From: Pyropia yezoensis
Lineage: Eukaryota; Rhodophyta; Bangiophyceae; Bangiales; Bangiaceae
Direction of reading: 5' to 3'
Length of the DNA stretch: 64,000 nt
Assembly (NCBI GenBank): GCA_009829735.1
Contig: CM020618.1
Location: 15,172,568-15,236,567 of the forward strand
The notes beneath the pieces were generated by a model. It worked only from the letters and a program-made list of their open reading frames with translations. It did no database searches and was not told the origin of the DNA. Every line of letters begins with the position of its first letter. Positions within the stretch are counted from its first letter, which is position 1. Positions 20,921 through 52,917 of this stretch are shown in pieces. The position numbers and the translations under genes are program-made.

Positions 20921-21016
20921 AGGTCCCGCCGGGATGTCAACGCACCTTGAACCCGGGTCTGGAGATTCAGAGTCTCCCGTGCTTCGTGCCAATTACAACC
21001 ACTACACCACGGGACC
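20921..21016 (-). tRNA. tRNA-Gln(CTG) with D-loop and T-loop introns
   Basis: On the minus strand the acceptor stem GGTCCCG (21016-21010) pairs with CGGGACC (20928-20922), followed by T73. D stem GTGT/GCAC, anticodon stem GGAGA/TCTCC with loop CTCTGAA (anticodon CTG at 20970-20968) and T stem CCGGG/CCCGG are all perfect or G-U. The D loop has 21 bases instead of 8, an excess of 13 between about 20996 and 20983. The T loop has 18 instead of 7, an excess of 11 between about 20946 and 20935. The anticodon loop has none. Removing both excesses gives a normal 72-base tRNA-Gln. The mature parts are identical to those of the copy at 47250, while the inserts differ. Confidence 0.93.
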
Positions 21017-41666: not shown

Positions 41667-44600
41667 TCAATCCTCTTGTTCCGCATCCGTTGCGGGCGAG
41701 CTCGTCTCGTCCCGAGGGTCTTGGTTGGCCCCGTCCTCTTGGTCCTCCTCCGTGTCCGACTCCAGAATCTTGCCGGCTCTGGCCACTGGAGTGCCCTCGA
41801 TCCCGTTCCGTCGCGTGTAGGCACAGACGTCCGCGATGGGTAGCCGGTTTGAGGGTTCCCATGTATCATCTGCTGGGTTAAAGCCGAACCAGCGTACTCG
41901 CAGGTACAGGCGTCCATCTCTCCAGGCATGGTCGACAAACTTGACGTAGACAAATTCCCGACCTTCTTCTTGGGATAGCCAGGGTATCGCAGTCCGCTTA
42001 CGCCGGGTCAAGTCCCGTTGGCTTGGCGGTGGAGCTCGGGTGACATGGTCGCTGCTCACCCGGTACGGAGAGCCATCCACGTCTAGAAGGAAGGTCCAGC
42101 CATCCGTATTGAGAATCTCATAAGGTCCATCCGTCTTAGAGTCCAGCTTCCCCCGGGTCTTGCTATGGTTGTCCACAAAAACCCAGTCGCCACCACCCAG
42201 TTCCTTGTTCTTTTCCCGGACACCCTTGTCATAGTCCCGCTTGTATCGCTCCTGGGTCTTTGAGATTGACTCCTTGACTCTTGGGAGTAGGAGCTTTAGT
42301 TGTTCCAGGAACTCATCCTTTGCCTTGGGACCTGACTTCAGTGCAGGCTGGAGACCATCCGGTATTCTTTCCAGGGAGAAGTTGGTCAGCCGCCTTGGGG
42401 TGACAAAGTCGAGTGGAGCGACTCCCGTTGTCCGGTGAACTCGGGAGTTGTAGGCTAGAGTGAGGACAGCCAGGAGCTCGTCCCAGTCTTCTTGGTGCTC
42501 CTCCACGTAGTGCCGTAGCATGTCCACTAGGGTCCGGTTGAATCGTTCCACCTGACCGTTCGTTTGAGGGTGGTACGTCGTGGTGTACAAGTTCTTGATG
42601 CCCATCAGGTCACAGACTCCTTGGAAGAACAGGGATGCAAACTGGGGACCGTTGTCGGTTAAGACGGAGTCTGGAGGGCCGTAGGCAGCTATCCAGTACT
42701 CGCAGAAGGCCGACGTGACATCCAGAGCCGTGATGGTTCTCAACGGGATTGCTCGAGTGAACTTGGAGAACCGGTCACAAATGATGAGCAGGTATATGTT
42801 GCCACTGGAGGTCTCAGGTAGGGGCCCCAGGATGTCCATGCTTAAGCTTGCAAAGGGCTCCGCCGCAGGGAATAGGCGTAGCTTAGAAGTCTTCTTCCTC
42901 TGGGACAACCGGTTCCTTGCACAAGAAATACAAGCCTCCAGGCACTTATGGACGTCACTGGCCATGGTTTCCCAGTAATAATGTCGTCTCATGGAAGCAT
43001 ACATCCGATTGATACCAGGATGCCCGGCCTGGGGAGACGAGTGCTCCAGGCGTAGGATGTCAGTCCGTAGGCTCCGGGGTACGTAGACTTGAGTTGCCCC
43101 ATCGAAGGGTGACACCCGTACCAGGAGTCCGTCTGTAGACTCGGAGAAGCGACTGTTCCGGTTCAGGTCCATTTGGTGGCGAAGCTCCAAGCATTGAGGG
43201 TCCGTCAATTGTGCCTCCAGCATCCGGTGAATGGTTACCGGTTGATGAGCGTCAGGTGTCTCGTACAGGGGAGCGTGCCAGCCACGTCCGACATTCGGGA
43301 GGATGAAGCAAGGTATTTCCTCCGGGATAGGACCGGTATCGGCTGCAGGAGTCTCCAGCCGGGACATGGTGTCGGCGCAGTGGTGCTCCCTCCCTGCTCT
43401 GGTGCACACCTTGTACTTGAACTCCGAAAGGCGTAGGCGCCACCGGGCGACCCTTCCTTGACTGCTGTCCATGCATAGTAGCCACCTTAGACTGGCGTGG
43501 TCCGTCCGGATGAGGAACTCTTGTCCTTCAAGATATGGACGTAACAGGAAGCAAGCCCAGACGACCGCCAAGCACTCGCGCTCGGTCGTGGAATAGTTCT
43601 TCTCGGCTGGAGTCAAGACGCGACTGTAGTAGCCTATCGGGAGGAAGTGCCCATCAGGTTGTTGCTGGAGTAGTGAGCACCCCACCTGGACGCCACAGGC
43701 GTCAGTCTCCAGAACAAACTGACCCTCCCGCTTGGGTAACGCCAGTACTGGAGTGGTGGTCAGGCGCTTCTTGAGCTCTTCGAAGGCTGTTGTCTGCTTC
43801 TCGTCGAACACCGGGAGTTGTGCTGGAAGCTTCTTGCTAGTAAGCTTGGTCAAGGGCCGGGCAATCAAAGCGTAGTCCCGTACGAACCGGCGGTAGACGT
43901 TGCACATACCCAGGAAGCTCTTGAGTTCCGTCTGGGTTTTAGGTTGCCGTGCATGCCGGAGGGCCTTGATGTTCTTCTCGTTGACTCGGAGCTCCCCCGG
44001 ACTCAGCACGTGCCCCAGGTACTCCACCTCAGTCTCAAACAGGTGGCACTTCTCGGCCTTGAGGGTAACTCCAGCCTTGGACAGGAGGGCCAGGACCTCT
44101 CGAAGGTGCTCCAGGTGTTCCGCTGGGGTCTTGGAGAAAACAATGATGTCGTCCAGGTAGACCAAACATGTTCTCCACCTTAGCCCCGACAGGATGATGT
44201 CGATGGCTCTCTGGAAGGTTGCCGGAGCATTAGTGAGACCAAAAGGGAGACGCTTGCACCGGAACAGTCCCATGTGGCACGTGAAGGTAGTCTTGTCCTT
44301 GTCCTCGTCAGCCAGAGGGATCTGCCAGTAACCGGCATTACAATCCAGCGTCGAGAAGAGGGTGGCATCACCAAGAAAGTCGAGGCAATCATCCATCCGG
44401 GGTATCGGGTATACATCCTTGACTGTCATCTCGTTCAGGCGTCTGTAGTCAACGCAGAAACGGAAGTGACCGCCAGGTTTCGGGACGACTACCACCGGGA
44501 AAGCCCACTCGCCATCAGACGGCTCGATAACATCCATCTTGAGCATCTTGTTAACCTGCTTCTCAATCTCATCCCGGCGATGAGGTCCAGCCCGGTATGG

Positions 44601-45530
44601 GTGCATGTGCACTGGTTTGGCATCTGGCTTGAGTTGAATCCGGTGTAGGGTGGCGTCCATCTTGCCCAGCTCTCCAGACCACAGGTGCCGATATTCCTGG
44701 AGAAGCTTCTCCAGTGCCTCCTTCAAGTCGGGAGGGACGTTTTCTTGGTTGACCTTCGGCATCCCGGGCGGTGCTTGTTCCGGCTTCGGAGTAGTACGGC
44801 CAGCCTGCTCTTGTTCCGGAGATACGTCTAAGGCCGTCAAGTTGGATGCCAGCTCTTGTTGCAGGTTGAAGAGGTCTTCCTTGCTCATAGCGCGGGCGGA
44901 CCCCCGGTAAGGCTCTGCTGTACCAACTCGAGTGCCCTTGGCGAGGGTTATTGGCTTCCGGCTCACGTTGACGATCAGCACCGAGAACGGGGTGTGCCTC
45001 TCCACCTTCTTGTGGTGTCCGTGGGCTAGGTATAATCGGTGTTTCGCCAGAAATTCCTTGCGTCCGTAGATCAGGCATTGACCTGCAGTCCGGGTCGTGA
45101 CTTGAACCTTGGTCTCCGAGCGAGGAGGTAGGAGCACCGGTTTGATGAGGGTCAAGGTAGAGGGTGGGATGCGTTCCTTCTGGTTCTTGGCCACACGAAC
45201 CTTGGTGTCCAGGTGCTCCAGCACTGGTGACACAACCCCATGGTTGAACTGCACCTTTCCTTCTCCGGGTAGGATGCTCTTGACATGCTGCTTCTGGAAG
45301 TCCCAGCCTAGGATGAGGGGGACTGATAAGGTCTTGACTACTAGAAAGGGAAAAAGCATTGGTTCATTGTTGACATAGATGGCGACGGGAAGACGGCCAA
45401 GCGGTCGTAGGGTTTGACCTGATGCGTCTACAATCCGGGTCTTGGTAGGCGCTCTCCAGGCATGTCGACGCCAGCCCGGAGGTAACAGGTTCTCAGTGAT
45501 GACGCTTGGTCCGGCTCCCGTGTCGACCAC
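41667..45530 (-). CDS. pol: chromovirus pol: protease, RT, RNase H, integrase, chromodomain
   Basis: The 1,287-residue frame is uninterrupted. The aspartic protease motif VVDTGAGPSVI sits at the start. The reverse transcriptase has FRFCVDYRRLNEMTV, LDCNAGYWQIPLADEDKDKT, LPFGLTNAPATFQ and the catalytic YLDD (44148-44159, residues 458-461). RNase H begins FVLETDACGVQVGCSLLQ. The integrase has the HHCC zinc finger (HPGINRMYASMRRHYYW through CISCARNR) and the triad in SMDILGPL, LTDNGPQFASL and NGQVERFNRTL. The chromodomain near the C-terminus reads EFVYVKFVDHAWRDGRLYLR and VRWFGFNPADDTWEPSNRLP; chromodomains direct integration to modified histones in related elements. The real start lies upstream: the gag/protease part continues in another frame across a short C run at 45557-45560. 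Confidence 0.93.
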   Translation of the reverse strand: MVDTGAGPSVITENLLPPGWRRHAWRAPTKTRIVDASGQTLRPLGRLPVAIYVNNEPMLFPFLVVKTLSVPLILGWDFQKQHVKSILPGEGKVQFNHGVVSPVLEHLDTKVRVAKNQKERIPPSTLTLIKPVLLPPRSETKVQVTTRTAGQCLIYGRKEFLAKHRLYLAHGHHKKVERHTPFSVLIVNVSRKPITLAKGTRVGTAEPYRGSARAMSKEDLFNLQQELASNLTALDVSPEQEQAGRTTPKPEQAPPGMPKVNQENVPPDLKEALEKLLQEYRHLWSGELGKMDATLHRIQLKPDAKPVHMHPYRAGPHRRDEIEKQVNKMLKMDVIEPSDGEWAFPVVVVPKPGGHFRFCVDYRRLNEMTVKDVYPIPRMDDCLDFLGDATLFSTLDCNAGYWQIPLADEDKDKTTFTCHMGLFRCKRLPFGLTNAPATFQRAIDIILSGLRWRTCLVYLDDIIVFSKTPAEHLEHLREVLALLSKAGVTLKAEKCHLFETEVEYLGHVLSPGELRVNEKNIKALRHARQPKTQTELKSFLGMCNVYRRFVRDYALIARPLTKLTSKKLPAQLPVFDEKQTTAFEELKKRLTTTPVLALPKREGQFVLETDACGVQVGCSLLQQQPDGHFLPIGYYSRVLTPAEKNYSTTERECLAVVWACFLLRPYLEGQEFLIRTDHASLRWLLCMDSSQGRVARWRLRLSEFKYKVCTRAGREHHCADTMSRLETPAADTGPIPEEIPCFILPNVGRGWHAPLYETPDAHQPVTIHRMLEAQLTDPQCLELRHQMDLNRNSRFSESTDGLLVRVSPFDGATQVYVPRSLRTDILRLEHSSPQAGHPGINRMYASMRRHYYWETMASDVHKCLEACISCARNRLSQRKKTSKLRLFPAAEPFASLSMDILGPLPETSSGNIYLLIICDRFSKFTRAIPLRTITALDVTSAFCEYWIAAYGPPDSVLTDNGPQFASLFFQGVCDLMGIKNLYTTTYHPQTNGQVERFNRTLVDMLRHYVEEHQEDWDELLAVLTLAYNSRVHRTTGVAPLDFVTPRRLTNFSLERIPDGLQPALKSGPKAKDEFLEQLKLLLPRVKESISKTQERYKRDYDKGVREKNKELGGGDWVFVDNHSKTRGKLDSKTDGPYEILNTDGWTFLLDVDGSPYRVSSDHVTRAPPPSQRDLTRRKRTAIPWLSQEEGREFVYVKFVDHAWRDGRLYLRVRWFGFNPADDTWEPSNRLPIADVCAYTRRNGIEGTPVARAGKILESDTEEDQEDGANQDPRDETSSPATDAEQED

Positions 45531-46148: not shown

Positions 46149-47249
46149 GTTGGCAGCGGCGTCGGTGGGAAGCCGGCGGGGGGGTATGCGGGGCGGCAGC
46201 AACCCGTCGCCAAAAGCGCCTCGACCCAAACGTTGGCGCGATAGAAAGCTTGGGCACCTGTGCTTGTAGCAACGTGGAATGGCAGGCGCAGCAGCGGCGC
46301 GGGTAGCACGTGGTGGTGGAATGTTAACCAATGCTTTCAATGTTGACCGGGCCCGGATTGCGCACGGTGACCCCGTGGAGGCCGATTGTCTTTGACACAG
46401 CGTTCTCCTTGCTTTCTTCCACGTAATGCAACACACGCACTATCTATGCTACAACCATCAGCTTCTCACAGACGGCGAAGAAACAGAGTCTTCACCCGTG
46501 TACAAAAAACTGTGGCCTGCAAGCGTGTGCTTCTTGCCTTCCGTGTCTGTTTTAATGCCCAGAATTATCCTTTTTCAGGGGCTGAGAAGGTCCCAGTCCC
46601 CAACGATGAAAGGGTACTTCCAATGCTTTCTCCTCCGCGTATGATTGTGCTATGCCGGAATACTCCCATGTCATTGGCGTACAACTGGTCGACATTGCCG
46701 CTTTCACGCACCTTCTCGTGCATGCGTCTCGGCAAGAGCAACAACACCGAGAAAAGAAAATGCGTTGTGATGCTCACAGCGAGAGCGTTTTTATTGTGTT
46801 TTTTGACCCTCACAGCGACAAGGTCGACGACGGCAGGTGACGTATTGGTCAACATTCCGCCAGCACGTGCTAGAGTCTTTCTCCATTGCTGTGACATCCT
46901 TTCTTGGGCACGGTGTGTAGTAACCAATGCAGGTCGACGGTCTCTACGGTGCGATCAACGCATGTGTCAGCATTCGATCGTTGTCACCGACCAATCAGAG
47001 GGCGGAATCAAGTTACTATCCTTGAGCTTACGGTCGCCACAAAGGGTGACCTACAATAGAGAAAGCCTGTAGGGCTGCTAAAGTCGGCGGCCGCAGGTGG
47101 CGTGGAGAGGACTGCATTCGAGCTGGTGCTGTATGTAACGTGCCTTAACCTGCTCTTGTGAGACCAGGGTGCGGCGAGAGGAGCCGAAAGGCTAGCACAT
47201 GCATCGTCGCGTAACAACTATACAAAATTGCTACCCACGTCATCGCACG
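46149..47249. other. right flank of the gap, no recognised gene
   Basis: No homology is seen on either strand. A 228-residue plus-strand frame (46386-47072) has no recognisable domain and many Cys and Arg residues; I do not call it. Confidence 0.4.
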
Positions 47250-47346
47250 GGTCCCGTGGTGTAGTGGTTATAGCGGTCATGAAGCACGGGAGACTCTGAA
47301 TCTCCAGACCCGGGTTCAAGATGCGATGGCAATCCCGGCGGGACCT
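47250..47346 (+). tRNA. tRNA-Gln(CTG) with D-loop and T-loop introns
   Basis: Acceptor GGTCCCG (47250-47256) pairs with CGGGACC (47339-47345), then T73 at 47346. The D stem is GTGT (47259-47262) with GCAC (47284-47287), and the D loop has 21 bases instead of 8: the extra 13 are about 47271-47283. The anticodon arm GGAGA-CTCTGAA-TCTCC (47289-47305) is uninterrupted, anticodon CTG at 47296-47298. The T stem is CCGGG (47310-47314) with CCCGG (47334-47338), and the T loop has 19 bases instead of 7: the extra 12 are about 47320-47331. Removing both gives a 72-base tRNA-Gln. The insert ends are ambiguous by one or two bases. Such ectopic tRNA introns are known in archaea and in the red alga Cyanidioschyzon merolae. 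Confidence 0.93.
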
Positions 47347-47945
47347 GTACAAAATGAGATATCCTTTTGCTATTCACTCATCCCGCAGAAACATATGGTA
47401 TGATCACCAGAAAACGTTACATACTTTATTTAGGGCTATGTGCCGAATTTTTGCCGATCCGAACAAGAACAGCACAAGCGCATGAACAAGAGGTTGAGCC
47501 AATGGCGTGCCAGTGTCCGGGAAGTAACCAATAGTGTGCTCTGGCGCTCAGATCCCTGGAAGCTTTTTTATTGGCTGCGGCGCCCGTAAGTCTCAAACTA
47601 AACGCTGATTGGTCAGAGCACTGTTGTTTTCTCGTCCGATCTCGGTCGTATGTCCTCCATCGCATGCGGCGTCCCCAGCAGGTCTCAAGAGGTCAGTTGT
47701 GCAGCTGGAAACTGGTGCCGATGTGGTCGGGAAATCTCCAGGAAATCTCAGATGCTCCGTTTGCTCTTCATCGGACCCCCATGCGGAGCTGTCATTGGTC
47801 GGACGAGCACCAGCTGTGGTCAGGGGGGCCTCTTCTGATGCGTGCCATTGGTCATCTGCAGTCTGTTTGTGTTCCTGTCCGGATCGGCCAGAATTGGGCA
47901 ATCAGCAATAGAAGACACAGACGCGATATGCCGATATGTACACAT

Positions 47946-52826: not shown

Positions 52827-52917
52827 CGTGTCTGGCAGGATTCGAACCTGCGCTCCCGAAAGAAATTGATTTCTAGTCAATCGCCTTGAATGATCTCAAC
52901 CACTCGGCCACAGACAC
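52827..52917 (-). tRNA. tRNA-Ser(AGA) with a 10-base D-arm insertion
   Basis: Acceptor GTGTCTG (52917-52911) pairs with CAGACAC (52834-52828), discriminator G at 52827. The D stem is GCC with GGC; the anticodon arm is ATTGA-CTAGAAA-TCAAT, anticodon AGA (52874-52872, read as IGA). The long class II variable arm TTCTTTCGGGAGC follows, then T arm GCAGG-TTCGAAT-CCTGC. The D loop has 20 bases where tRNA-Ser usually has about 10; the excess, about 52895-52886, reads GATCATTCAA. The surrounding TTGA and TCAA are complementary, so the insert can extend a helix, as needed for the splicing endonuclease substrate. Confidence 0.92.

Follow-up and report, generated by a model that had tools for sequence, protein, structure and literature searches.

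Cyanidioschyzon-type ectopic introns in tRNA genes of the multicellular red alga Pyropia yezoensis, with predicted splicing

Introduction

Can a tRNA gene that is interrupted in both its D loop and its T loop still supply the cell with a tRNA? This question is raised by a tRNA-Gln(CTG) gene of Pyropia yezoensis, which lies in a stretch of 64,000 nucleotides of contig CM020618.1 (hereafter the window). In reviews, eukaryotic tRNA introns at such ectopic sites are described as peculiar to one minimal unicellular red alga and to nucleomorphs (PMC3978253, PMC4090602). A preliminary description, made from the letters of the window, had proposed that the gene carries two removable inserts and that ectopic introns extend to another red-algal lineage. 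Here, the structure of the gene, its relatives in the genome, the pairing at its predicted splice sites and the candidate splicing enzymes are examined.

Structure of the tRNA-Gln(CTG) gene

The proposed coordinates and structure of the two-insert gene were found to hold. After removal of 13 bases from the D loop and 12 bases from the T loop (Table 1), the acceptor stem (GGTCCCG/CGGGACC), D stem (GTGT/GCAC), anticodon stem (GGAGA/TCTCC) and T stem (CCGGG/CCCGG) were all paired, with a single G-U pair in the D stem, and the anticodon loop CTCTGAA contained no insert, in agreement with the earlier claim of four paired stems and an intron-free anticodon loop. The conserved bases of the D and T loops were present in the insert-free form. 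The 97-base gene was rebuilt exactly from its exons and introns, and the predicted mature RNA was 72 bases long with the discriminator base counted. A permuted gene, with the 3' half upstream of the 5' half, was considered and rejected, because the exons of all three Gln(CTG) copies found in the genome stood in normal order.

Table 1. Positions of the interrupted tRNA genes and associated elements in the window
Feature	Position	Strand	Remarks
tRNA-Gln(CTG) gene copy 1, D-loop and T-loop introns	47250..47346	+	genome-built covariance model 52.4 bits, E 1.1e-12
Copy 1 exon 1: acceptor 5' strand, D stem 5' strand, D loop up to 20a	47250..47269	+	
Copy 1 D-loop intron, 13 bases	47270..47282	+	bulge-helix-bulge central helix GTGG:TCAT, 4/4 pairs
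Copy 1 exon 2: positions 21-59, anticodon CTG, 37/38 intron-free	47283..47320	+	
Copy 1 T-loop intron at 59/60, 12 bases	47321..47332	+	central helix TTCA:TGGC, 3/4 pairs
Copy 1 exon 3: position 60, T stem 3' strand, acceptor 3' strand, discriminator T	47333..47346	+	
AT-rich stretch ~20-40 bases 5' of copy 1	47212..47229	+	common to other tRNA genes here
TTTT, Pol III terminator-like, 3' of copy 1	47365..47368	+	
tRNA-Gln(CTG) copy 2	20921..21016	-	D intron 20984-20996 (13 bases), T intron 20935-20945 (11 bases)
tRNA-Ser(AGA), 10-base D-loop intron 52888-52897	52827..52917	-	spliced form equals intronless copies L025, L026

The unspliced gene received no call from ARAGORN, and its spliced form was called as tRNA-Gln(ctg) over positions 1-72. 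Under the Rfam tRNA model the gene reached only 23.3 bits, against a gathering score of 29. A covariance search, as suggested in the preliminary description, was made here with a model derived from 17 further tRNAs of this genome, with no Gln among them. Because this model gave 52.4 bits (E ~1e-12), the match was far beyond chance. Besides this gene, the scan of the window returned two interrupted genes, a second Gln(CTG) gene and a Ser(AGA) gene. The latter was misnamed tRNA-Arg(gcg) by ARAGORN, and automatic annotation of such genomes may contain wrong anticodons. The G+C content of the window was 56-71% by 16-kb block; that of the P. yezoensis genome is 65% (PMC7423979). By eye, a long open frame on the reverse strand at 41667-45530, ~1.7 kb from the tRNA-Gln gene, resembled a Ty3/gypsy-type retrotransposon polyprotein.

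Census of interrupted tRNA genes

The genome (107.5 Mb, 11 contigs) was surveyed by the Rfam tRNA model, with which 63 of 1453 first-look candidates were scored, by DNA searches with spliced genes and by scans of the retrieved loci. Introns in the D loop and/or T loop were found in at least 35 loci with 14 anticodons, a lower bound by the nature of these sources. The 43 Rfam matches with E <= 0.001, read by eye, comprised 10 with a D- or T-loop insert, 3 with only a 37/38 intron, 2 that were pseudogene-like and 28 that were insert-free. The 20 weaker matches, read in the same way, comprised 14 complete genes with ectopic inserts, five Asp-like copies with a mismatched acceptor and one doubtful Thr-like copy. 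Three Gln(CTG) genes, the window Ser(AGA) gene, four Leu(CAG) genes and three Asp genes brought the total to 35.

The D-loop introns adjoined position 21, and the T-loop introns interrupted the 59/60 junction. Both kinds were present together in five loci (Gln copies 1-3, one Asn and one Asp), and one Lys(TTT) gene combined a T-loop intron with one at 37/38. Close copies were frequent among the 35 loci (six Lys, four Leu). On contig C3, at 12.65-12.77 Mb (L067, L068, L070, L071), a D-intron Lys(CTT) gene within ~1.3 kb of a T-intron Leu(CAG) gene was repeated four times. No gene of the Phe, His, Pro or Met isotypes turned up in the census. Queries with plant-type Gln(TTG), Glu and initiator Met genes gave no DNA match in the genome, a result that is not informative, since the surfacing of Gln(TTG) and Glu(TTC) genes by another route showed such a cross-species search to be too insensitive. 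At locus L101, a nuclear open frame on the reverse strand (1243-2139) apparently holds a phycobilisome-domain match (PF00502); red-algal phycobiliproteins are usually plastid-encoded.

It was found that a TTTT run occurred within 30 bases downstream of 25 of 26 ectopic loci and 27 of 31 other tRNA loci. In control windows further downstream, the counts were 0-5 of 25-26 and 3-6 of 31, respectively, and in the 30 bases directly upstream they were 8/26 and 1/31. The AT fraction 21-50 bases upstream was 0.69 for ectopic and 0.67 for other genes, compared with 0.40-0.47 further up; genes without ectopic introns thus share the same AT-rich upstream stretch. These comparisons covered 26 of the 35 ectopic loci (omitting L068, L071, L083-L085, L092, L122, L123 and L125), and the pseudogene-like L046 and L050 were kept out of the comparison set. 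The internal B box is split by the T-loop intron, and therefore upstream DNA may matter more in these genes. The AT-rich stretch upstream of Gln copy 1 might act as its promoter.

Splice-site pairing and splicing endonuclease genes

The standard bulge-helix-bulge (BHB) motif joins, by base pairing, exon positions -6 to -3 ahead of the 5' cut to intron positions -6 to -3 ahead of the 3' cut. The motif consists of a 4-bp helix with 3-base bulges, as outlined in two reviews (PMC3978253, PMC4090602). With the cut at 59/60, 14 T-loop introns formed 45 of 56 helix pairs, compared with 25.5 +/- 3.3 in shuffles, and none of 20000 shuffles reached this number; four other registers gave 10, 23, 28 and 30 pairs of 56. 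The D-loop test comprised 11 introns; a cut placed two bases after G19 gave 34 of 44 pairs (20.7 +/- 3.2 in shuffles, reached by 1 of 20000), and the registers none and one base after G19 gave 18 and 17 of 44, which was no higher than in shuffles. When three related Lys rows were removed, D-loop pairing rose to 31 of 32 (0/20000 shuffles); the Lys rows fitted one base earlier, with 3/4 pairs. The Gln, Lys, Leu, Ser and Asp rows each form a group of relatives, a kinship that all of these shuffle statistics ignore.

The T-loop test omitted loci whose T intron was identical to a listed one (L068, L071, L091-L093) and other Asp types. Introns left out of the first tests gave 20 of 28 pairs in the T loop (1/20000 shuffles) and 8 of 8 in the D loop (177/20000), with the near-duplicate L124 and duplicates excluded; the sequences of T rows L106, L109 and L111 were known before the register was fixed, and only the remaining rows were new.

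A check for folds of this kind at both sites of Gln copy 1 had been suggested, and pairing consistent with a relaxed BHB was observed at each (4/4 in the D loop, 3/4 in the T loop). The T-site helix had 3/4 pairs in all three Gln(CTG) genes, and the D-site helix of Gln copy 2 also had 3/4. The helices of Lys(TTT) and of two Asp T introns were weak (2/4). In the plain minimum-energy fold of unspliced Gln copies 1 and 2, the BHB motif did not appear by itself; a rearranged hairpin ~11 kcal/mol below the cloverleaf was obtained. Adding the BHB helices to the fold gave a gain of 1.3 kcal/mol in copy 1 and a loss of 0.8 kcal/mol in copy 2. The minimum-energy fold of Gln copy 3 showed the D-loop helix unaided.

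A search with the PF01974 profile returned two genes, whose best solved-structure matches were Sen34 and Sen2. A SEN54 gene was found via its N-terminal domain (2.9e-11). A candidate for Sen15 was weak (26.4 bits against a cut-off of 22), and no Sen15 was present among its PDB matches.

Removal of the inserts by another enzyme than SEN, or without a BHB, as may hold for many introns of the Guillardia theta nucleomorph, was weighed against these data. Several helices have only two or three of the four pairs, and a review describes many of the Guillardia introns as being without a defined motif (PMC3978253). Nevertheless, the pairing exceeds shuffles by far in one register, both at the two sites and in the rows initially omitted, and SEN genes are present in the genome, which makes this alternative improbable.

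Copies and intronless twins of the interrupted genes

Short insertions in the D or T arm may also be signs of decay: the interrupted genes would be pseudogenes or repeat copies, and the tRNA would come from intact genes at other loci; according to a review, such insertions in eukaryotic tRNA genes usually are cases of this sort (PMC4090602). An intact, intronless Gln(CTG) gene had been named beforehand as one observation that would contradict splicing. When the whole genome was searched with the spliced sequence, three Gln(CTG) matches were returned, all with both inserts, and no intronless Gln gene usable as a direct twin was found. Copies 1 and 2 lie in the window and copy 3 on contig C2. 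The exons of copies 1 and 2 were identical at 72/72 positions, and the range among the three copies was 70-72/72. The two exon changes of copy 3 amounted to one compensatory change of an A-U to a G-C pair in the anticodon stem. In contrast to the exons, the introns have diverged, with 6-9 identical of 12-15 aligned columns between copies, an identity that was above letter shuffles at the 5% level in three of six comparisons and not in the other three. The 100-base flanks showed 50-55% alignment identity with gaps, a figure with no shuffle control behind it. A pseudogene reading of Gln(CTG) was rejected, as the exons are constrained and no intact intronless copy was among the three returned. 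The single Gln(TTG) locus found had a 44-base T-loop insert with 4/4 helix pairs and an insert-free D loop.

For Asp(GTC), 24 places were returned. A T-loop intron was present in 22, accompanied in one case by a D-loop intron, and the remaining two had a D-loop intron alone; none was intronless. The acceptor stem was paired in 10 of the 24 places, and its 5' and 3' strands were mismatched in the other 14. The latter (L106-L108, L112-L121 and L124) are Asp-tRNA-like copies; those inspected share upstream DNA in the manner of a dispersed repeat, with the T-loop intron copied along. Provided that the GTC anticodon alone reads Asp codons and that no intronless gene was missed, the Asp(GTC) introns must be removed.

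Some copies are thus clearly broken, as are the Asn-like L046 and the Thr-like L050, which carry changes and look like pseudogenes. Decay of the interrupted genes as a class, however, is hard to reconcile with the presence of both inserts in every Gln(CTG) locus, with exons that are conserved, down to a compensatory pair, while introns diverge, with the lack of any intronless place among those for Asp(GTC), with introns at two sites that show splice-motif pairing, and with acceptor stems paired 7/7 in all 35 loci. We consider it very unlikely.

Several other isotypes had intronless counterparts in the same genome. Of the three forms of Asn(GTT), L009 has no intron, L080 has one in the T loop and L090 has one in each loop; after predicted splicing, L080 and L090 were identical to L009. 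The spliced Ser(AGA) gene of the window was identical to two intronless genes. Trp and Lys(CTT) also had intronless twins, that of Trp with one exon difference elsewhere, and at the junction the predicted cuts agreed with both of these twins. For the D-loop introns of Asn and Ser, no register other than the fully paired one restored the twin; for those of Trp and Lys, two or three registers did so, the fully paired one among them, and for the Asn T-loop intron a neighbouring register also restored the twin. Exact cut points were ambiguous by 1-2 bases where exon and intron letters repeat (e.g. Trp, Lys and the Asn T loop). Retention of the inserts in functional tRNAs with enlarged D and T loops is the least probable alternative: tRNAs with unusual loops exist, but since the D and T loops dock onto each other in folded tRNA, 11-44 extra bases in the T loop of many isotypes would be out of keeping with nuclear tRNAs, insert-free twins are present for Asn, Ser, Lys and Trp, and intron bases near the 3' cut pair with the exon at one register.

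Discussion

Taken at the level of the genome sequence, the locus is very probably a functional tRNA-Gln(CTG) gene in the nucleus of a bangiophyte red alga, whose two introns would be removed by the SEN endonuclease and whose exons would be ligated to a 72-base tRNA. RNA polymerase III would transcribe a precursor containing the 97-base gene. Each intron would form a relaxed BHB, in which a four-base exon segment pairs with an equally long intron segment close to the 3' splice site and both cuts fall in bulges. Both introns would be excised by the tRNA splicing endonuclease, with SEN2 and SEN34 as catalytic subunits, and a ligase would then join the exons to the standard tRNA-Gln. We infer transcription, cutting, joining and the order of removal from what the genome contains, namely the gene, its inserts, insert-free twins of other isotypes, the pairing, the terminators and the endonuclease genes. 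Because many other tRNA genes share such misplaced introns, the alga apparently needs this unusual form of tRNA splicing.

The introns are of the Cyanidioschyzon type. As described in reviews and related papers, C. merolae has red-algal nuclear tRNA genes with D- and T-arm introns besides those at 37/38 and with several introns per gene (PMC3978253, PMC4090602, PMC9602550), as well as relaxed BHB motifs and SEN2, SEN34 and SEN54. Both 20/21 and 59/60 are listed as sites of archaeal introns, and in permuted genes of C. merolae they are the junctions given (PMC3978253, PMC4090602); no permuted gene was encountered in P. yezoensis in the present analysis, which was not directed at such genes. P. 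yezoensis differs in being a large multicellular bangiophyte and not a minimal unicell, in having intronless twins within the same genome and in having a Sen15 candidate, none being reported as found in C. merolae. Ectopic introns were also found here at just two sites, although the searches were not site-blind, as the model was built with D-loop inserts.

The nucleomorph of Guillardia theta, which is of red-algal origin, is a second system of this kind. Its tRNA genes carry short introns in the D and T arms, with a maximum of two or three in one gene (Kawach 2005, as cited in PMC3978253 and PMC4090602). As reported there, its inserts measure 3-24 bases and many are without a defined BHB, whereas those of P. 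yezoensis measure 10-44 bases and have a preferred pairing register. Non-canonical introns of Crenarchaeota likewise have a BHB, occupy many sites including 20/21 and 59/60 and often occur several per gene, but the archaeal endonuclease is described as being without the eukaryotic SEN54 and Sen15 subunits (PMC4090602, PMC8450103). No earlier report of ectopic tRNA introns in Pyropia or other multicellular red algae was found in a limited search of open-licence literature. The extension of the ectopic-intron system known from C. merolae and the G. theta nucleomorph to another red-algal lineage, as anticipated in the preliminary description, is supported by these results.

We lean slightly towards a broader reading, in which the translation of a multicellular eukaryote depends on ectopic tRNA splicing. 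Asp(GTC) and Gln tRNAs would come only from genes with D- and/or T-loop introns, cutting would be performed by a four-subunit SEN including Sen15, and introns would still be gained and lost between copies with identical exons. If the enzyme has all four subunits, loss of Sen15 would not be what frees it from position 37/38. For C. merolae, two reviews state that no Sen15 was found and that a link to ectopic splicing was proposed (PMC3978253, PMC4090602). If the candidate in P. yezoensis is real, the link between absence of Sen15 and ectopic splicing would be weakened; a true Sen15 in a genome with ectopic introns would count against the proposal that lack of this subunit permits ectopic cutting.

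The abundance of ectopic introns in this seaweed explains why standard gene finders overlook or mislabel tRNA genes in its genome. According to the tRNAscan-SE 2.0 paper, eukaryotic genes are restricted to a single intron (PMC8450103), and a 2023 codon-usage study of eight red algae describes the use of default tRNAscan-SE (PMC10496412). That these introns are so numerous in a large seaweed genome points to a wider trait of red algae, and the intron-plus and intron-minus copies with identical exons represent a natural test of intron gain, loss and cutting.
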